In this document: piece after piece, positions 16,216-62,078 of the stretch
How the letters are laid out: each line of letters begins with the position of its first letter
How positions within the stretch are numbered: position 1 is the stretch's first letter
NCBI RefSeq assembly: GCF_018141545.1
Contig: NZ_CP064357.1
Location: forward strand, 744,001-808,000
Origin: Miltoncostaea oceani
Lineage (GTDB): Bacteria; Actinomycetota; Thermoleophilia; Miltoncostaeales; Miltoncostaeaceae
DNA: 64,000 nt
Direction of reading: 5' to 3'
Position numbers and translations under genes: made by a program
The notes under the pieces: model-generated
What the model was told of the DNA's origin: nothing
The model's input: the letters and a program-made list of their open reading frames with translations, nothing else
The model's database searches: none

Positions 16216-16289
16216 TAACGGGGGCCGGATTCGAACCGACGACCTCCAGGTAATGAGCCTGGCGAGCTACCAAACTGCTCTACCCCGTG
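16216..16289 (-). tRNA. tRNA-Met (CAT), initiator-like
   Basis: A 74-nt cloverleaf folds cleanly: acceptor 7 bp, D-arm GAGC/GCTC, anticodon stem CCAGG/CCTGG with loop CTCATTA (anticodon CAT), T-loop TTCGAAT, and no encoded CCA. Two initiator hallmarks are visible: the first acceptor pair is mismatched (C1 against U72) and the D-stem has A11-U24. The anticodon stem deviates from the canonical initiator because the expected GGG/CCC run is AGG/CCT. It is therefore a diverged initiator-type tRNA, isolated from any other RNA gene. Confidence 0.88.
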
Positions 16290-20715: not shown

Positions 20716-22773
20716 ATGGACGAGCCCCCGAACACTGACCAGCTGCCGGTCCCGGCCACCGGAGAGGGCACCGAGATCACCCCGGTCTCCCAGTATCCGA
20801 CCGGAGTCGAGAGCCTGATGCCGGTCGGCGCCGACGGCGTGGTCGCGACCATTGACGAGGAGGACGAGGAGAACCTTCCCGATCGCCAGCAGCCGGCCGA
20901 GGCGCCGCCGGATGTACGCGACATCCCGATCGAGGACCTGTTCGAGATCGCCAACATCCGCCCCCAGTACTACGGGGTGGAGGAGCTGAGCGAGTCGATG
21001 CGGGTCCAGGGGCAGCTCGAGCCGGCGATGGTCCGCCCCGCTCCCCCGGGCGCGACCCACGACCGGCCCTTCGAGCTCGTCTTCGGCTACCGACGGAAGC
21101 GCGGCGCCGAGATGCTCGGATGGAACTGCCTGCGCTGCGAGGTCCGCGACCTGAGCGACGCGGGGATCCTCGACGTCATGATCACCGAGAACCTCCAGCG
21201 CGAGGACCTCTCGGCGATCGCCGAGGCGAAGGCGATGAAGGCCCTCGTCGAGCTCGGGGGGCTGAGCCAGGCAGCGGTCGCGCGCCGGCTGGGCGTCTCG
21301 GCCTCGCATGTCTCGCACCGGTTGCAGCTGCTGACGCTGTCGGCGCCGGTGATCGAACAGATCGACAAGGGCGAGATCTCGGCCAGCCACGGCGAGGCGC
21401 TCGCGTGCCTGCCGGCGGCCAAGCAGGAGGCCTTCGCCAACCGCGCGGCCTCCGGCGGAGTCAGCGTCACCAAGCTCTCATCCTGGATCCGCACCGCCAA
21501 GCAGGAGCTCGAGGAGGAGGCGCCGCCTGATCCCGAGGACCTCGAGCCGGTGGGGCCCGAGGACGCCACCCAGATCCCCCACGTGGTGCTTCGCGCGGAC
21601 CTCGATGAGGACGATCAGACACGCATGCTCGTCTATGTCCTGCTGCGCAGCTGCAACGACCAGGAGATGCTCGAGTACCTCTTCGAGACCGAGGGTCTCG
21701 GCTACGAGCAGATCTGGGACTGGGTCCGCGGCCTGGACGCCGAGGACGCCCGGACGCTGACCGGGCGCCTCGTCCGCCGCTACCTGGAGGCCGGGCACCG
21801 CTTCTCATCGCTCGAGTCCAGCCTGGTCTCCGACCTCGGCGACGGGGCCGACCCCGAGCGCCGCGAGTCGTACGCCCTCACCGATCTCCCTGCGGTGAGC
21901 GCCGACCGCTCCGGGCTGGGGGACCTGCCCGACATGGGCGCCCTCCCGCCGGCGCCGGAGGCCGATGACTCATGGCTGCCGCCGGCCGCCCTCGGCCCCG
22001 CTGCAGAGTCCTGGGGTGGCGACACCTCCTGGACCGATGAGCTGCGCGTGGATGAGGCCGCGGGCGAGATCGTCGAGCCGGAGATCGTCGAGGCCGAGAC
22101 CGACGACGATGGCAACTTCGCGCTCGCTGCCGAGGACGAGGAGCCCGACGCGGACGAGACCGGGACCGACGAGGGCGTAGAGGCCGATGAGGACGATGGC
22201 TCGATGCCCCTGTCCCTCGCCGAGGAGCTCTCCGACGCCCTCGCCGAGCGCCAGGGACTCGACCCGGAAAAGGCCCTCGACCTCGGCCAGCGGGTCGAAA
22301 ACGCCGGTGCTCCGCTCGTTGCGATCGCCGAGCAGTGGATCGCGTCCGGTTCGCTGCCGGCAGCACCGCTGGTCGCCGGCTTCTCACCCGCGGGCCTGCT
22401 CACCCAGCTGGGCAAGCCCTCGCTGGTTTTCAGCTCGCTGATCGCGTTGGTCGAGTCGACCGAGGCCGCCCGAGCCCGCCTGGAGGGCCTCGGGGTCCTC
22501 ACCGGTGAGGCGCAGATCGTGGCTGCCCTGGTCTCACGCCAGCAGGTGGAGCCCGAGAAGGCCCGTGGCCTCGTCTCCCGGGTGGCTGAGCACGACCAGA
22601 TCCTCGAGGCCGCCCTCGAGTGGGTCGAGCACGAGGCCTTCGGCTCCGAGCCGGTGATCGCGGGCCTCAACCCGACCAGCCTCGAGGCCCGCCTCGGCAA
22701 GCCGAGTCTCGTCCTGAGCGCCCTGGTCGCCCTCGAGCGCGACCCGGAAGCCGCCCTCGCACGCCTCGGTTAG
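20716..22773 (+). CDS. ParB-like partition/nucleoid protein with duplicated C-terminal module
   Basis: 685 residues. After an acidic N-terminus, the ParB N-terminal domain is clear (about residues 70-175): NIRPQY, VEELSESMRVQGQLEP, the box GYRRKRGAEMLG and ENLQREDLSAIAEA. The HTH follows (SQAAVARRLGVSASHVSHRL). Residues about 280-490 are less conserved and very acidic. The last 190 residues are two tandem copies of a ~90-residue module, each ending with a (Q/R)LGKPSLV motif and ALVALE-like helix. ParB proteins bind centromere sites and load DNA-sliding clamps using CTP. This one is about twice the normal length, and no parA sits next to it. Its stop overlaps the convergent release-factor gene. 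Confidence 0.82.
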   Translation: MDEPPNTDQLPVPATGEGTEITPVSQYPTGVESLMPVGADGVVATIDEEDEENLPDRQQPAEAPPDVRDIPIEDLFEIANIRPQYYGVEELSESMRVQGQLEPAMVRPAPPGATHDRPFELVFGYRRKRGAEMLGWNCLRCEVRDLSDAGILDVMITENLQREDLSAIAEAKAMKALVELGGLSQAAVARRLGVSASHVSHRLQLLTLSAPVIEQIDKGEISASHGEALACLPAAKQEAFANRAASGGVSVTKLSSWIRTAKQELEEEAPPDPEDLEPVGPEDATQIPHVVLRADLDEDDQTRMLVYVLLRSCNDQEMLEYLFETEGLGYEQIWDWVRGLDAEDARTLTGRLVRRYLEAGHRFSSLESSLVSDLGDGADPERRESYALTDLPAVSADRSGLGDLPDMGALPPAPEADDSWLPPAALGPAAESWGGDTSWTDELRVDEAAGEIVEPEIVEAETDDDGNFALAAEDEEPDADETGTDEGVEADEDDGSMPLSLAEELSDALAERQGLDPEKALDLGQRVENAGAPLVAIAEQWIASGSLPAAPLVAGFSPAGLLTQLGKPSLVFSSLIALVESTEAARARLEGLGVLTGEAQIVAALVSRQQVEPEKARGLVSRVAEHDQILEAALEWVEHEAFGSEPVIAGLNPTSLEARLGKPSLVLSALVALERDPEAALARLG

Positions 22774-23778
22774 TCCGCCTGGGCGAGCTCCAGGACGCGC
22801 TGATGGGCCTGCGCGCGCAGGAAGGGGTCGAGGTTCCCGCTCTGGAGCGCCGCGTCGTTCATGACCTTCAACCCGGACTCGTGGTCGCTGACCGCGCGGT
22901 AGGGATGAAGGATGTAGGAACGCTTGCGCTGCCCGAAGCCGGCGCTCGCCGGCGCCCCGCGCATCGTGGCGAGCATCCTCTCGTGCTCCACGCGCTCGCG
23001 CTCGGCCAGGCGGGAGCTGAGCAGTGCCATGGCGATCTTTCGGTTGGCCTGCTGTGAGCGGTCCGAGCTCGCCTGGGCGCTGATACCGCTCGGCGTGTGG
23101 GTGATCCTGATCGCGGAGTCGGTCTTGTTGCGGTGCTGGCCCCCGGGGCCCGAGGCCCGGTAGGCCTCAACACGCAGGTCCTGGGCGGAGACCTGGAGGC
23201 CCTTGACTCCGTCGATGCGGGGGATCACCTCGACCGCGGCGAAGCTCGTCTGACGCTTGCCCTGCTGGCCGAAGCGCGAGAGATGAGAGACGCGGTGGAC
23301 GCCGGACTCCCCCCGGAGCAGGCCGTAGGCATTCGGGCCGCCGATCTCGATGACGACCTGACGGATGCCCTCATCCTGGGCGTAGGAGAAGTCGATCTCG
23401 CTGACGCGCCGGCGTGAGCCCTCGGCCCAGAGCAGGTACATCCGCAGCAGCTGTCCGGCCCAGTCGCGCGCGTCGGCGCCGCCTGCCCCTGCCCGGATGC
23501 TGAGGATCGCCGGCCGGTTGTCGTGAGTGCCCCCGAAGGCACATGAGAGCGTCAGGGCGTCGAGGCGTGCCAGGGTCTCGGATTCGAGGACATCGAGTTC
23601 GTCCTGGCCGGGTCCGTCGGCGTCGCCGCGGAGTTGATCGATGACTGACAGGTCAGAGGCGAGGCGGTCCGCCTCGGCGTGACCCTCGCGATCTCCTGCC
23701 CGGCTAAAGGCAGCGCCCAGCAGCTGCGGCGAGATGCAGCACCTGCGAGCGCGGATGTCCGGGGGCGAGTTCAGTCAT
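22770..23778 (-). CDS. prfB: RF2-like peptide chain release factor with +1 programmed frameshift
   Basis: Translation should start at the ATG at 23778 (AGGTG upstream) and read 24 codons to CTT followed by an in-frame TAG at 23706-23704. Shifting +1 (AGC at 23705) opens a frame to the TAA at 22770, giving about 335 residues. No ATG, GTG or TTG exists in the long frame before the conserved IRAGAGGADARDW region, so frameshifting is needed for a full protein. The body is RF2-like: GVHR, RQTSFAAVEV, the GGQ motif in YRASGPGGQHRNKTDS and FGQRKRSYILHPY. Two oddities stand out. The stop-recognition tripeptide is SRF instead of SPF, and the recoding stop is TAG, which RF2 does not normally read. Domain 1 is about 30 residues short. 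The upstream zero frame is MTELAPGHPR and so on. Confidence 0.8.
23704..23709 (-). promoter_or_regulatory. +1 frameshift site CTT TAG in the release-factor gene
   Basis: On the minus strand CTT (23709-23707) precedes TAG (23706-23704) and C. The position, after codon 24, matches the canonical RF2 site (CUU UGA C after codon 25 in E. coli), but the stop is TAG. The stimulatory AGGGGG element just upstream in E. coli is absent; only a GGG is seen. Confidence 0.65.
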
Positions 23779-23819
23779 GACACCTGGTGACGATACAACG
23801 CCGGTGAGGCACGACGTGT

Positions 23820-25157
23820 TCATCTCGCGTCGGCCTCGGCCTCCGCCTGGGCGAGTCCGTGAAGCGTGGCCGCAAGACCGCGGCGGAAGGCGACCTGCGT
23901 CGCCGCCGCTCCGACCTCGAGCACCAGCGGCACCCCCAGCCCGAGACTGAGGCTGCGCAGGTCATGGAAGACCCGCTGGTAGTCCTCGTCCCGCCACCCG
24001 AGCTCGCTGATCCCATCGAGCTCGTGCGCGTCGAAGCTCGCCTCGACGAGGATGAGACCGGGTCGGTGCGCGACGAGAGCGCCGAGGACGGCCGTCCACT
24101 CCTCGGCGAAGGACTGGCCGGCGTCGGTGCGCACCGGTCGGTTGAGGATCCCGGGGTCTGCGCTCTGCAGCCCGGTACCCGGGTAGAACGGGAACTGATG
24201 GATGCTCGCGGCGAGGACCCGCGGGTCGGCGCAGAAGATCTCCTGGGTCCCGTTACCGTGGTGGGCATCGACGTCGACGATGGCGACGCGCTCCACCCCT
24301 TGAGAGAGAGCCTCCGTGGCGCCTACCGCGAGGTTGTTGATCAGGCAGGTCCCCATCGGGCGGTCCACGCCGGCGTGGTGGGAGCCGGGACGTGCAAGGC
24401 AGATCCCGACCCGCTTTCCCCTGTCCCCGAGGCCGTCCCGGACGGCCTTCGCGATCGCGCCGGCGGCCGCCCTGATCGCCGCCGGCGTCTCACGGATCAC
24501 GGGGGTCTCGGGATCGAAGTGACCTCCTCCGGAGGCGGCGAAGCGGTCGATGTCGCGGAGGAGACGCAAAGGGTGGACCCGGGCGATCTGCTCATCTGTC
24601 GCCGGGGTGCACTCCCCCTGCGGGCGCCCTTCCAGCATCTCCCGTGCCCATCCGAGCTCGGGCGGAGCGAGGGGGTAGTCGAGGCACGCAGACGGGGCGT
24701 AGACACGAGCGCGCGAGCTCGTGGGTCCGGGAGCGAGCCATATGGCCGGGACCTGGGCCATGGGCCACGAGCCCGCCGGCCGATGGGCGTCGGGTGTGAT
24801 CATCGACCGCTCACAGACGAGGGAGCTGTCGAGCTCGCGCTGCCAGGTGGCGATGTCGCCGACGGCGGCGCAGAGGAGTAGAGGCAGGTCGATCTCCGGC
24901 AGCCCCTCGCAGTAGTGGAGGAAGGCCAGATCGTCGGCCTGGGCGGGTCGCCATCTCGGGTCGGCCGACTTGAACCGCCGCCAGAGGGCCGGGTCGAGGT
25001 GACGCAGGAGGCAGCCGAGCTCGGGCGCGTAGGCGAACGCCTCGCTCAACGGCCCGAGGCGAGCGAGTTCCCTCATGCGCTCGAGCGTGTCCCAGTTCTG
25101 CCTCACGCGGCGAGCATGGGCGCGCAGGGAGGCGACGCAAGCGAAGTTCGCGCTCAC
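23820..25157 (-). CDS. Histone-deacetylase-fold protein with extra N-terminal domain
   Basis: 445 residues from GTG. Residues about 1-140 form an unrecognised helical domain. Residues 150-440 match the arginase/deacetylase fold: RPGSHHAG (256-263) and CLINNLAVGA, followed by DVDAHHGNGT with zinc ligands D297 and H299, and ASFDAHELDG with D376 as third ligand. The tyrosine that stabilises the transition state in the usual LEGGY motif is missing: the equivalent stretch is LEVGA with Ala at 417. It may still bind zinc and an acyl substrate, but with altered or reduced activity. The acetyltransferase gene at 25186 is divergently transcribed from the same 28-bp gap, so the two may act on the same target. 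Confidence 0.8.
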   Translation of the reverse strand: MSANFACVASLRAHARRVRQNWDTLERMRELARLGPLSEAFAYAPELGCLLRHLDPALWRRFKSADPRWRPAQADDLAFLHYCEGLPEIDLPLLLCAAVGDIATWQRELDSSLVCERSMITPDAHRPAGSWPMAQVPAIWLAPGPTSSRARVYAPSACLDYPLAPPELGWAREMLEGRPQGECTPATDEQIARVHPLRLLRDIDRFAASGGGHFDPETPVIRETPAAIRAAAGAIAKAVRDGLGDRGKRVGICLARPGSHHAGVDRPMGTCLINNLAVGATEALSQGVERVAIVDVDAHHGNGTQEIFCADPRVLAASIHQFPFYPGTGLQSADPGILNRPVRTDAGQSFAEEWTAVLGALVAHRPGLILVEASFDAHELDGISELGWRDEDYQRVFHDLRSLSLGLGVPLVLEVGAAATQVAFRRGLAATLHGLAQAEAEADAR

Positions 25158-44326: not shown

Positions 44327-45175
44327 ATGAGCCCGCCCGAGACTGACAGCCCTGACATCGACGAGCCGGTTCGCGAAGGTGGACTCGACTCACAGGCGAT
44401 GGCACGCCCCGGCTGCCCGGCCTGCAAGGGCAAGGGCACCGTGGAGCGGCCGCGCGAGGACGGAAGCATCGACTATCGCGTCTGCCTGTGCGTCCTCCAC
44501 ACCCAGCGCCGCGCCACGGCCCGCCTGATGATCGCGCGCCGCTTCGACCCGCTGATGCGACGGATGACCTTCGCCGCCTATGACCCCGGCTCAGCGCCGG
44601 AGAACCTGATGGCGCTGCGCGTCGCCCGGAACTTCTGCGACTCCTGGGTGCAGGCCCGCAGGGAGGGCTGGGTCCTCGGGCTCTGGGGGACCCCCGGGTG
44701 TGGCAAGACCCACCTCGCCACGGCGATGGCGCTCGAGCTCACCCGCCGCTTCCTCGCCAAGAGCCTCGTCGTGACCGTGCCGAACCTGCTGCGCGATCAG
44801 CGGCGCACCTTCGGAGCCTCGGAGCGGTCGGATGTCGCCAGCCCGATCGAGCGTGCGATCAACGCCGACTTCCTCGTACTCGACGACCTCGGCGCGGAGT
44901 ACCTGCGGAGCCGAGAGGGTGCCCGGAGTGAGGTCGACTGGGTCAGCGAGCAGCTGTACCTGCTCCTGGACGAGCGTCTCCGCCATGACCGCCCGACCGT
45001 CTTCACGACCAACTACTCACCGACCGATCTCCAGCGCGTCCTCCAGGAGCGGGTGTCCTCGCGCCTCGAGCGCGCTGAGGTCATGCCGGCCCTCGAGATG
45101 ACCAAGGTCTCGGCGCGCGTGCGGACGAACGCCGGCGCCCAGAACCTCCTGACCAAGGACCGTCCCAGCTCATGA
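44327..45175 (+). CDS. DnaC/IstB-type AAA+ helicase loader
   Basis: 282 residues from the ATG at 44327; a GTG at 44297 is an alternative. A cysteine cluster (C30-x2-C33 and C53-x-C55) precedes the AAA+ domain. Walker A GTPGCGKTH is at about 121-129, Walker B DFLVLDDLGAE follows near 180, sensor FTTNYSP near 226 and the arginine SSRLERAE near 243. DnaC-family proteins open the replicative helicase ring and load it at the origin. The gene sits between the initiator and the primase-helicase, and its stop overlaps the latter's ATG. The zinc-like N-terminus probably contacts the helicase or initiator. Confidence 0.88.
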   Translation: MSPPETDSPDIDEPVREGGLDSQAMARPGCPACKGKGTVERPREDGSIDYRVCLCVLHTQRRATARLMIARRFDPLMRRMTFAAYDPGSAPENLMALRVARNFCDSWVQARREGWVLGLWGTPGCGKTHLATAMALELTRRFLAKSLVVTVPNLLRDQRRTFGASERSDVASPIERAINADFLVLDDLGAEYLRSREGARSEVDWVSEQLYLLLDERLRHDRPTVFTTNYSPTDLQRVLQERVSSRLERAEVMPALEMTKVSARVRTNAGAQNLLTKDRPSS

Positions 45176-47868
45176 GCGAGACGACGACCAGCGTCTTCGA
45201 CGAGATCAAGAACCGCGTCGACCTCGCCGACTACCTGAGCAACCACGCCGGCGTCGAGCTGGTCAGCGGCGGCCCCGGCACCCTCGAGGCCCTCTGCCCC
45301 TTCCACGCCGAGGACACCCCGAGCTTCAAGGTGACGGACGCCCGCTCTGGTGAGCCCTGGAAGACGTGGCGCTGCTACGGATCTTGCTCGACCGGTGGGA
45401 CGGTCATCGACGCGGTCATGCAGCGCGAGGGCTTCGAAACCGCTTTCGAGGCGATCGAGCTGCTCAACGAGCTCTACGGACTCGGCCTCGAGAACAACAC
45501 CAAGCGGTTCGAGAAGTTCAAGCGGACCGTCGCCGAGGCGACCACCCAGATCGAGAAGGCCGACGCGGAGATGCGCTCGGGCTCCGAGCGCGCGACCCGC
45601 GCCCGCAGCTTCCTCCACGCCCGCGGCTACACCGATGAGACGATCGAGCACTTCGGCCTCGCCGTCCACACCGCCTTCTCCTCCGCGGGGCGTCTAGCGA
45701 TCCCGATCTTCGACCGCGCCAACCACCCGATCTCGATGAGCCACCGGGCTCTGTTCGACCGCTACCCGTGCGCGAGCTGTGGCGTCGAGGTCGCGGCCAA
45801 GGACATCGCGGGCCGCCGCCACAAGTCCGAGGCGGCGCGCAAGAAGGGTCTGGAGGAGATCGACTGGCAGACATGCCCGCACTGTGAGGCCCCCAAGGAC
45901 GAGGCCCGGATCGCTTGGCTGGTGCGCCAGCACCCCAAGTACATGAACGAGGCGGATTACGAGAAGTCGAAGCTGCTCTACAACGAGCCGTCCTCCCGGC
46001 GCGCCCTGCGCAAGGACGAGGATGTCATCGGCTACTTCATCATGGAGGGATACGCAGATGTCTGGGCCTGTCATCAGGCCGGGCAGCGCGCTTGCTCCTC
46101 CTACAACGGCGCGAGCATCTCCTCCTGGCAGGCGGCTGAGGCCGCGAAGCTCTGCGGGGCCTCGGACCCGGACCGGCCGCTGATCCTGATCCCGGACTTC
46201 GACCAGACCGGAATCCCGAAGGTGCGAACGAACATCGAGGAGATCCGCCGGGCGGACCCGAACGTCGAGATCCAGGTGGTCGCGAACCTGAGCACCTCAG
46301 GGGACTCCGACTCCTACAAGGACCTCGGCGAGCTCCTGTCGCGTCGCGGTGCAGATGCGGTCGCCCAGGTCCTCGAGGAGAACCGGATCTCCGCCGACGA
46401 GTGGCTTCTGCGCGAGGTCCTCGACGCCCGCAACCCCAAGACCGGCAAGCCGTTCCACTCGAAGACCCGCCAGATGGAGCTCTGCTCCCAGATTCTCTCC
46501 GGCGTCCACCACCGCGTGGCGATCGATCATCTCGTGCCGGTGCTTGCCGGGCAGTGGGGTATCCAGGAGCCCCAGGCGCGCGACTTCGTCTACGCGAACA
46601 TCACCGGGCGCGAGTCCCTGCCGGCCGAGCACCTGATGAAGGACGTCCACCAGGCCCAGGCCGAGGCCATCGCCTACCTGCGCGACGACTTCGTCATCCC
46701 ACACGGCTTCGAGAGCCTCGACCGCTGCTTCCCCGGCGGCGGAGCGCGCATCGCCCAGCTGTCGCTCTGGCTGGGCAAGTCCGGCGTGGGCAAGACCGCC
46801 CTGATGCTCCAGGTCCTCGCCAACATGGCGCGCCGGGGGGTGCGGTGCATCTTCTTCTCACTCGAGCAGCCGGCGGCCCAGCTGTTCATGCGGATGACCT
46901 GCCAGGTGCTGGCGATCCCCATGGACGAGGCGATCGAGCTGATCAAGAACGAGGACCCGCGGCTGGCCGAGGTGCGCGAGACCTTCGAGCGCCTCGTGAT
47001 CATCGACAACGTCCCCGGTGAGGGTCAGACCGAGATGGTCGACATGAGCGCCGGGCGGATCCACAAGATCATCCACGACGTCAACCTGACGCGCTTCCCC
47101 GAGCCTGCTCAGGTCGTCGCCGTCGACCACCTGGGCATCCTGAAGGTCGGCTCTGACGCCCCGCGCAACGTCCAGAACGACGAGCTCCAGGCGGCCGGCT
47201 ACATCATGCAGGAGCTCTTCAGCGTCTGTAAGGCGACCAAGACCTACTTCATGGTCCTCCAGCAGCTGCCGAAGGACGTCAAGCAGGGTGAGCCGATCAT
47301 GTCCGGTGACATGGGTCGCGGTGGCGCCAAGCAGCAGGACTTCGCCGACTACGTCATGGGCATCTGGCGCCCTGAGCAGCGTGCCGACCTCGATGACGAG
47401 GAGCGGATCGCGCTCGAGGGGCAGTACAAGCTCTACCCGGCGAAGAACCGCCACGGCGCCCAGCAGCTCTGCCACCTGTACTTCGATCGCAAGAACCTCC
47501 GGATCATGGAGGCGCTCGACATGATGCCCTCACACTCGGCCGTCGGGTCACTCGATTCTGCCGACGGCGCTCCGGTGCGCATCGGCTCCGGCGATGGTGA
47601 GGACGACTTCCTCGCCATCGAGCAGGCGCAGCTGGAGCGCGCACAGAACCCACCATCCGATGATCCGCCCCCGGAACGTGCACAGAGCGCACCGGCCGCC
47701 GCGGCCTCCCCCCAGATCGACCTGCGTGTCTCGCCGCCGCCGCCGCTGCCGGTCGCCGACCCGAACCAGAGCGACCCTCACGTGCCACTCGACAGTGACG
47801 CGATCCTCGGGTTGCTCGGAGTCGCTGACGACTCGGAGCACGCGCTCGAGGAGGAGTTCTTCGAGTGA
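45172..47868 (+). CDS. Fused primase-helicase (CHC2, Toprim, DnaB-type)
   Basis: 898 residues. CHC2 zinc finger (C42, H45, C68, C72), then an extra zinc-ribbon insert C200-x2-C203 and C235-x2-C238, a Toprim core (EGYAD at 292-296 and DFDQTG near 342), and a RecA-type DnaB helicase with Walker A GKSGVGKT (535-542), Walker B VDHLGIL near 650 and QQLPKDVKQG. The last 120 residues are low-complexity and proline-rich. It makes RNA primers and unwinds DNA in one polypeptide, like phage T7 gp4. The preceding gene is its loader, coupled by ATGA. The additional zinc ribbon is not typical of the family. Confidence 0.92.
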   Translation: MSETTTSVFDEIKNRVDLADYLSNHAGVELVSGGPGTLEALCPFHAEDTPSFKVTDARSGEPWKTWRCYGSCSTGGTVIDAVMQREGFETAFEAIELLNELYGLGLENNTKRFEKFKRTVAEATTQIEKADAEMRSGSERATRARSFLHARGYTDETIEHFGLAVHTAFSSAGRLAIPIFDRANHPISMSHRALFDRYPCASCGVEVAAKDIAGRRHKSEAARKKGLEEIDWQTCPHCEAPKDEARIAWLVRQHPKYMNEADYEKSKLLYNEPSSRRALRKDEDVIGYFIMEGYADVWACHQAGQRACSSYNGASISSWQAAEAAKLCGASDPDRPLILIPDFDQTGIPKVRTNIEEIRRADPNVEIQVVANLSTSGDSDSYKDLGELLSRRGADAVAQVLEENRISADEWLLREVLDARNPKTGKPFHSKTRQMELCSQILSGVHHRVAIDHLVPVLAGQWGIQEPQARDFVYANITGRESLPAEHLMKDVHQAQAEAIAYLRDDFVIPHGFESLDRCFPGGGARIAQLSLWLGKSGVGKTALMLQVLANMARRGVRCIFFSLEQPAAQLFMRMTCQVLAIPMDEAIELIKNEDPRLAEVRETFERLVIIDNVPGEGQTEMVDMSAGRIHKIIHDVNLTRFPEPAQVVAVDHLGILKVGSDAPRNVQNDELQAAGYIMQELFSVCKATKTYFMVLQQLPKDVKQGEPIMSGDMGRGGAKQQDFADYVMGIWRPEQRADLDDEERIALEGQYKLYPAKNRHGAQQLCHLYFDRKNLRIMEALDMMPSHSAVGSLDSADGAPVRIGSGDGEDDFLAIEQAQLERAQNPPSDDPPPERAQSAPAAAASPQIDLRVSPPPPLPVADPNQSDPHVPLDSDAILGLLGVADDSEHALEEEFFE

Positions 47869-48738: not shown

Positions 48739-49568
48739 CGCAGGCCTCGGGGGTGGCTGATCCGGCGCGGGAGGCCAAGAGCGAGGCGGTGCTCGCTGCA
48801 GTGCGAGCGATCGCTCGAGAATCGAGGACCCCTCGGGTCTCGGTTCAGGAGTATCTGCGGTACCGACGCGAGAACGACAGCTCCCTCCCCGCGGTCAACT
48901 CTGTCTACTCCCTCTTTCCGGGAGGCTGGAGCGAGGTGCTCGAGCGTGCCGGCCTCGGCGCCGAGAGCGACGAGGGGTCACGCCGGACCTCGGAGGCCTC
49001 GCTGCTCGAGGCCCTTCGCACCGTCGCGAGCGCCCTCTCGACCGAGGTCCTGAGCTCTCACGCCTATGACGAGTACCGCGCCCGGTGTGGCTTGTCCCTC
49101 CCGAGCTCCTCCGTGATCCGCAAGTGGCTCGACTCCTGGGAGCAGGCCGTCATCAAGGCCGGGCTGCAGGCTCCTCGCCGGTCGGGTGTCCGGCGGCCGA
49201 GCGCGGCCTTGGTGATCGAGTCCGTCCGTGCCGCGATCCGCGCGCACGGCAGCGCCATCACACCCGCCCAATACGAGGACTGGTGCCTCGAATGCACCGC
49301 GAACGGCGAGGATCCGCCTCGTCTCAGCAGCGTCCTCCAGGTGTTCCCGAGCTTCGAGATCGCCGTCCGATCCGCCGACATCGAGCGCAGCGACGATCTC
49401 CACCCCCATTCGCTCTGGACGGCCGACGAGGCCCGTCGGATCAGCCGTCTCTCCGAGATGATCGTCGGCGCCCCCCTCACCGAGGAGTCCTACGAACTGC
49501 TCCGGGCCCGGGCGACACGGCCGATGCCCACCTGGCGGACCATGCGCCAGCTGCTCGACACCCCCTGA
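48735..49568 (+). CDS. Protein of homing-endonuclease-associated repeats
   Basis: 277 residues from GTG, overlapping the previous stop. Three repeats of about 60 residues (starting near residues 22, 92 and 160) follow the HEAR pattern: RTP-like turn, YxxYR, a PSSSVIRK helix, then W-x2-A-x3-AGL. HEAR units are HTH-like and bind DNA, usually attached to a nuclease. Here no nuclease domain is present, so it is probably a DNA-binding protein. A degenerate fourth unit may lie at the end. Confidence 0.68.
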   Translation: MTQASGVADPAREAKSEAVLAAVRAIARESRTPRVSVQEYLRYRRENDSSLPAVNSVYSLFPGGWSEVLERAGLGAESDEGSRRTSEASLLEALRTVASALSTEVLSSHAYDEYRARCGLSLPSSSVIRKWLDSWEQAVIKAGLQAPRRSGVRRPSAALVIESVRAAIRAHGSAITPAQYEDWCLECTANGEDPPRLSSVLQVFPSFEIAVRSADIERSDDLHPHSLWTADEARRISRLSEMIVGAPLTEESYELLRARATRPMPTWRTMRQLLDTP

Positions 49569-61787: not shown

Positions 61788-62078
61788 CTACTGGGACCGG
61801 CGAGTGGACGCGGGTGCCTTGGCGCGCTTTCGCGGTCGCCAGCCGAGCATGGTGGCGAGGCCGGCGGCGATGATGGCGAGGGTGATGAGGGAGCTCGCGC
61901 TCTCGGTGGCGAGGGCGGAGCCGAGGTTCTGCGCGCCCGTGGCTGAGGCCTCAGGGAGCGCGAGCACGAGGGCGAGGGCGCCAAGGCCGACCGCCCGAAG
62001 GTGCGTCCCCTGGCCCCACGCCCAGACCGCGGCGCCAGCGAGGATGAGACCGATCAGGATCTGCGTCGTCATACCCAT
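61788..62078 (-). CDS. Small membrane protein
   Basis: 96 residues from the ATG at 62078. Two to three hydrophobic segments (ILIGLILAGAAVWAW, AVGLGALALVLALP, SSLITLAIIAAGLATMLGW) and a basic tail. The pattern is that of short TrbC/VirB2-type or holin-like membrane proteins, without a firm match. It is co-directional with the M50 protease but on its far side. Confidence 0.55.
   Translation of the reverse strand: MGMTTQILIGLILAGAAVWAWGQGTHLRAVGLGALALVLALPEASATGAQNLGSALATESASSLITLAIIAAGLATMLGWRPRKRAKAPASTRRSQ

Follow-up and report, generated by a model that had tools for sequence, protein, structure and literature searches.

A solitary, highly diverged RF2 paralogue with an SRF tripeptide and a candidate CTT TAG C shift site on a secondary replicon

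The gene described here is a genuine, solitary and highly diverged paralogue of release factor RF2, present in a single copy on an 816-kb secondary replicon, and we put at roughly one half the probability that it encodes an RF2-derived class-I release factor with an accessory role. It lies in the window (the whole 64,000-base stretch of DNA that was analysed), which comprises bases 744001–808000 of the replicon C2, a contig of 815,643 bases found alongside a 3.68-Mb chromosome. Such a factor would still enter the ribosomal A site and hydrolyse peptidyl-tRNA, would keep RF2-type reading of the second base through its Ser and Phe while its codon discrimination is weakened or relaxed, and would act as an auxiliary factor for UGA/UAA or in a rescue-like role, not as one specific to UAG. 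The fold is predicted to be that of RF2, the GGQ motif is intact, the body is coding-like, and an ordinary RF1/RF2 pair is encoded on the chromosome. Against a functional factor stands the loss of roughly one in three conserved positions, among them an Arg whose counterpart in RF1 is important, and because the body has no in-frame start the paralogue may be an unexpressed, decaying gene; no homologue under purifying selection turned up in the collections searched.

Table 1. Features of the paralogue locus, in window coordinates
Feature	Position	Strand	Remarks
Body of the RF2-family paralogue	22770..23705	-	311 codons after the putative shift, plus TAA; +1 frame
ATG-started 24-codon ORF ending in CTT TAG, candidate zero-frame leader	23704..23778	-	AGGTG upstream, dG -6.3
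CTTTAGC, candidate +1 shift site	23703..23709	-	Body frame reads GCC TTT AGC (A-F-S)
C5 run in the ATG frame, candidate spot of a one-base indel or assembly error	23761..23765	-	From sequence only
CTG, candidate non-canonical start in the body frame	23772..23774	-	6 nt past AGGTG; SD dG -6.3
39-codon longer form of the ATG-frame ORF	23704..23823	-	Start overlaps the upstream gene's stop codon (ATGA)
SRF tripeptide (TCG CGC TTC), followed by Gly	23271..23279	-	V-S-H-L before SRF; RF2 has L-V-R-x
GGQ catalytic motif, intact	23136..23144	-	
Histone-deacetylase superfamily gene, upstream and co-directional	23820..25157	-	PF00850, 161 bits
Convergent ParB-family gene	20716..22773	+	4-base overlap with the paralogue stop codon; HTH_ParB, ParB_N, TIGR00180

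Identity and genomic setting of the paralogue

The protein matches both domains of the superfamily (RF-1, PF00472, 100.9 bits; PCRF, PF03462, 64.5 bits), and the best curated family is prfB (TIGR00020) at 292 bits, under its cut-off of 370, with prfA and PrfH following in that order. AlphaFold2 models of the paralogue have pLDDT values of 83–85, and their best structural matches are RF2 (2ihr/1gqe). It shares with RF2 domains 2/4 and 3, the GGQ and the Ser and Phe of the tripeptide; it differs from RF2 in the SRF itself, in the V202S and R203H changes, in a shortened domain 1 (whose helices are present in the models), and in 40 of 116 conserved columns, defined as those shared by 90% or more of 99 RF2s, where the compared set shows at most 10 alterations and E. 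coli RF2 shows 16. SPF is found in 99 of the 99 RF2 sequences extracted for comparison, and viral RF2s also carry SPF, with one SPY. The sequence-only reading had proposed an accessory RF2-like factor with an altered codon-reading loop, in which SRF followed by Gly replaces SPF, and both parts of the proposal are supported. The codons of the body score as coding-like, with ordinary codon bias.

The divergence is also apparent in the RF2 tree, in which the paralogue has a branch length of 1.92 changes per column and falls outside the RF2 clade of the host class (support 99/97), so that it is not a recent copy of the host's own prfB; the host class itself is placed beside named Actinomycetota with weak support, and searches for 16S and for WhiB as phylum markers gave no match. 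At E ≤ 1e-73, 396 genomes of the phylum and 399 of the class yielded no relative closer than ordinary RF2, nor did phages, plasmids or viral contigs. The tblastn searches of phages and plasmids returned ordinary RF1, RF2 and PrfH only, all below 60% identity apart from one plasmid match at 60–80%, which we rejected as a 37-residue fragment of PrfH. What is new here is a so far solitary RF2 variant.

Two other members of the superfamily invite comparison. PrfH/RFH (TIGR03072) is likewise RF2-related, accessory to RF1 and RF2, and altered in its tripeptide (SxY in RFH, SRF in the paralogue), but the paralogue retains a remnant of domain 1, is far nearer to RF2 and reaches 99 of the 166.65 bits required for that family; its immediate neighbours (HDAC-like and ParB) include no rtcB-like gene. 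RF1 (prfA) shares the superfamily, but the paralogue lacks PxT and the Gln at the third-base position, and it scores 183–196 bits against the prfA profile, compared with 292 for prfB.

The replicon has a G+C content of 70% (vs. about 74–75%); among its genes are those for ParA/ParB, for type IV pili and for a primase-helicase fusion of phage type. On the chromosome lie an ordinary prfA and a likewise ordinary prfB, which has SPF and an in-frame ATG, so that the second, chromosomal prfB for which the sequence-only reading had suggested a search does exist, without a frameshift. Several further genes of C2 may be recorded here. In addition to the chromosomal set there are 40 tRNA genes for most amino acids, a near-full set, clustered at 351–363 kb, 489–502 kb and 671 kb, with one at 16216–16289 of the window. 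The phage-like fusion of a Zn-ribbon/Toprim primase to a DnaB-type helicase (PHROG 19, 239) occupies 45172–47868 of the window, and no counterpart of its N-terminus turned up in 41 further genomes from the family of the host. Two near-identical genes for a small membrane protein (MGMTTQILIGLILAGAAVWAWGQGT...) lie at 61788–62078 of the window and at 362865–363140 of C2, the latter adjoining a tRNA cluster. A tmRNA call at 48887 was rejected, having an implausible tag and no Rfam counterpart.

Codon pocket and stop specificity

RF2 releases at UGA and UAA, and the residues through which it does so can be aligned with the paralogue, whose pocket V-S-H-L-S-R-F corresponds to L201-V202-R203-x-S205-P206-F207 of RF2. 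The residue numbers follow E. coli RF2, whose sequence serves for numbering only. Ser205, Phe207, Arg213 and the next Thr are retained, while Val202 is replaced by Ser, the invariant Arg203 by His and Pro206 by Arg. The Val202 position corresponds to Gln185 of RF1 (Gln181 in Thermus), which makes a third-base bond, and Arg203 corresponds to Arg186, for which the R186A substitution raises the KD more than 400-fold (PMC3974865). Neither the Gln nor the PxT of RF1 has been acquired. Retention of Ser, Phe and Thr together with loss of Val202, Arg203 and Pro206 suggests that codon reading was weakened rather than switched, and from the pocket residues we infer a weakened or relaxed reading with no switch to UAG.

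It had been proposed earlier that the factor senses UAG and autoregulates by it. The presence of UAG at the putative shift site and the SRF tripeptide would fit such a proposal, and Ser at the position of Val202, where RF1 has its third-base Gln181/185, might tolerate G in the third position (PMC3974865). The pocket points the other way, however, since the second- and third-base residues Ser, Phe and Thr are RF2-like, the Gln and PxT of RF1 are absent and the invariant Arg is His. A prfB gene of a Lachnospiraceae genome (L034, described below) has CTT TAG C ahead of a normal SPF factor, so UAG at such a site need not mean altered specificity, and with prfA present UAG requires no additional factor. 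We therefore consider it very improbable that this RF2 derivative has come to recognise UAG, whether in place of its original codons or in addition to them, and regulates itself by way of a corresponding UAG in its transcript, and we regard as similarly far-fetched a pocket changed to read UAG or all three stops with the stop of the shift site changing from UGA to UAG alongside.

The use of TAG elsewhere in the genome is that of an ordinary stop. In the window TAG terminates 17 of 63 called genes and on C2 it terminates 246 of 792 (31%), and at a common threshold it closes 173/570 genes on C2 vs. 54/179 in samples of the chromosome (30%). Its frequency as a terminator on both replicons means that UAG is an ordinary stop, as the sequence-only reading had concluded from a hand count, and reassignment is ruled out. 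A UAG suppressor tRNA is ruled out likewise, the CUA anticodon occurring in 0 of the 40 tRNAs of C2. The replicon also carries a complete selenocysteine operon, selD-selA-selB-selC (C2 602580–606825; L146 2579–6825), with the only selA of the genome, so that on the replicon of the paralogue UGA is both the Sec codon and the main stop.

The 5' end and the candidate shift site

On the minus strand the 5' end reads ATG at 23778–23776, CTT at 23709–23707, TAG at 23706–23704 and C at 23703, which agrees with the earlier description of a 24-codon ATG frame ending in CTT TAG C with the body in the +1 frame. Also as described there, the long frame has no ATG, GTG or TTG ahead of the IRAGAGG region, its earliest such start being an ATG at 23441, downstream of that region. 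At a canonical prfB frameshift site the stop is one that RF2 can read, TGA and rarely TAA, an internal Shine-Dalgarno sequence AGGGGG stands 3 nt before the CTT, and the leader is homologous to helix 1 of RF2, with the site about 110 residues ahead of GxGG. The paralogue resembles this arrangement in its CTT-T slippery codon, its stop followed by C, the 24-codon leader and the putative +1 shift; it departs from it in having the RF1-specific TAG, in lacking the internal Shine-Dalgarno, in its spacing and in its codon usage.

That the gene is expressed through a programmed +1 frameshift at CUU UAG C, as at a prfB-type site in which UGA has become UAG, we regard as a tentative reading with somewhat less than an even chance; it implies nothing about the specificity of the factor. 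CTT precedes just 0.28% of all stop triplets on C2 (a homonucleotide or CTT-like slippery codon precedes 7.8%), so the pattern is no common accident, and the 24-codon leader with its SD-like AGGTG, the C that follows the stop and the relation of the two frames (+1) are as in prfB. Six relatives in the host class have prfB genes that use CTT TGA C with homologous leaders and without AGGGGG, the Lachnospiraceae prfB has CTT TAG C in the canonical position, and CUU UAG constructs featured in the largest survey and assays of shift sites (PMC5009743). The fused N-terminus is modelled by AlphaFold2 as a single helix (residues 9–26), with pLDDT values for the first two blocks of 50/82 vs. 34/68 for the body-frame N-terminus, and it scores 4.3 vs. 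0.8 bits for the body frame in a register ten residues beyond the canonical one.

Several observations argue against a shift at this site. At the canonical register it is the body frame that scores better (+3.1 vs. -5.3 bits for the fused form), and the codon-usage posterior for a switch at codon 24 is only 0.001–0.009; in the frameshifted relatives the same comparison favors the leader frame in 5 of 6. There is no internal Shine-Dalgarno; GGGCGC stands in its place, with a dG of -2.4 kcal/mol, compared with -10.7 in E. coli and a median of -2.9 for random sequence. From the site to GxGG there are 73 residues, vs. 105–118 in 50 frameshifted prfBs, so simple positional homology with the canonical frameshift site fails. 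TAG is used at 0 of 8,164 published prfB shift sites (PMC12421855), and the host's chromosomal prfB has no frameshift. Neither N-terminus adds to the score of the 99-RF2 profile, and a right-anchored profile alignment does not separate the two. The evidence on the recoding proposed by the sequence-only reading pulls both ways: the rare slippery codon, the fused fold and the CTT TGA C of the relatives favor it, and the codon usage, the lack of an internal Shine-Dalgarno and the spacing tell against it. A broken or unusual start accounts for the gene about equally well.

The same codon usage lends some weight to a broken 5' end, in which one extra base, either real or an artefact of assembly, as might have arisen in the C5 run of Table 1, splits the ATG from the body frame, and CTTTAGC is a mere out-of-frame stop that may descend from an ancestral CTTTGAC. 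The 18 codons ahead of the site prefer the body frame by approximately 8:1, a switch of frame at codons 5–6, beside the C5 run, has a posterior of 0.13–0.26, and the body frame reads QLLGAAF-SR, which parallels QLLGDYL-DP of the relatives. A gene that is single-copy and strongly diverged fits such damage as well. The remainder of the body is free of stops with good codon bias, however, a short C5 run is not notorious for errors, and the body-frame N-terminus is modelled less well by AlphaFold2, so that on balance we consider this explanation somewhat unlikely.

A non-AUG start in the body frame, at the CUG of Table 1, would dispense with recoding altogether. The SD-like AGGTG lies 6 nt ahead of it, the body frame is open from this codon onward, and the codon-usage posterior for the body frame all through is 0.29–0.62. 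Such starts are rare, though, the ATG four bases upstream contests the same Shine-Dalgarno, and the first 12 residues are of low confidence in the model, which leaves this start quite unlikely. That translation begins by some other route we consider improbable.

Shift sites in relatives and what they imply

CTT TGA C is found in prfB of three members of the host family (L086, L098, L111) and of three further genomes of the host class (L100, L104, L114), which means that such sites exist in the lineage of the host. The leaders in these six genes are homologous to helix 1 of RF2 (+3.8 to +31.8 bits vs. -11 to -22 for the other frame), and the AGGGGG Shine-Dalgarno is absent at all six. Most of the remaining members of the host family have lost the site, and the loss within the family is a repeated one. 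The natural CTT TAG C mentioned above belongs to Lachnospiraceae B55_55_CC_H (CAJTCV010000005.1, near 4678), where prfB reads AGGGATTCA CTT TAG C at the canonical position, lacks an in-frame start and encodes an SPF protein. The sequence upstream of this site is CTGAGGGATTCA, and the RF2 that follows is an ordinary one. TAA stands at 11 of 49 other prfB shift sites in the compared set.

The prfB frameshift motif has been reported as absent from Actinomycetota (PMC12421855); if the host is an actinomycetote, the CTT TGA C sites of its class contradict this report. Together with the natural CTT TAG C, the AGGGGG-free sites bear on the claims that TAG is never used and that whole lineages lack the motif, and for specialists these side finds, including the repeated loss of the site, may be weightier than the paralogue itself. 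As for the paralogue, SPF is near-invariant in RF2, and a natural factor combining SRF with V202S and R203H would reveal how much change the codon pocket can tolerate. Should the shift at CUU UAG C prove real, it would test whether the prfB circuit is a matter of RF2 autoregulation only or can also be tied to RF1.
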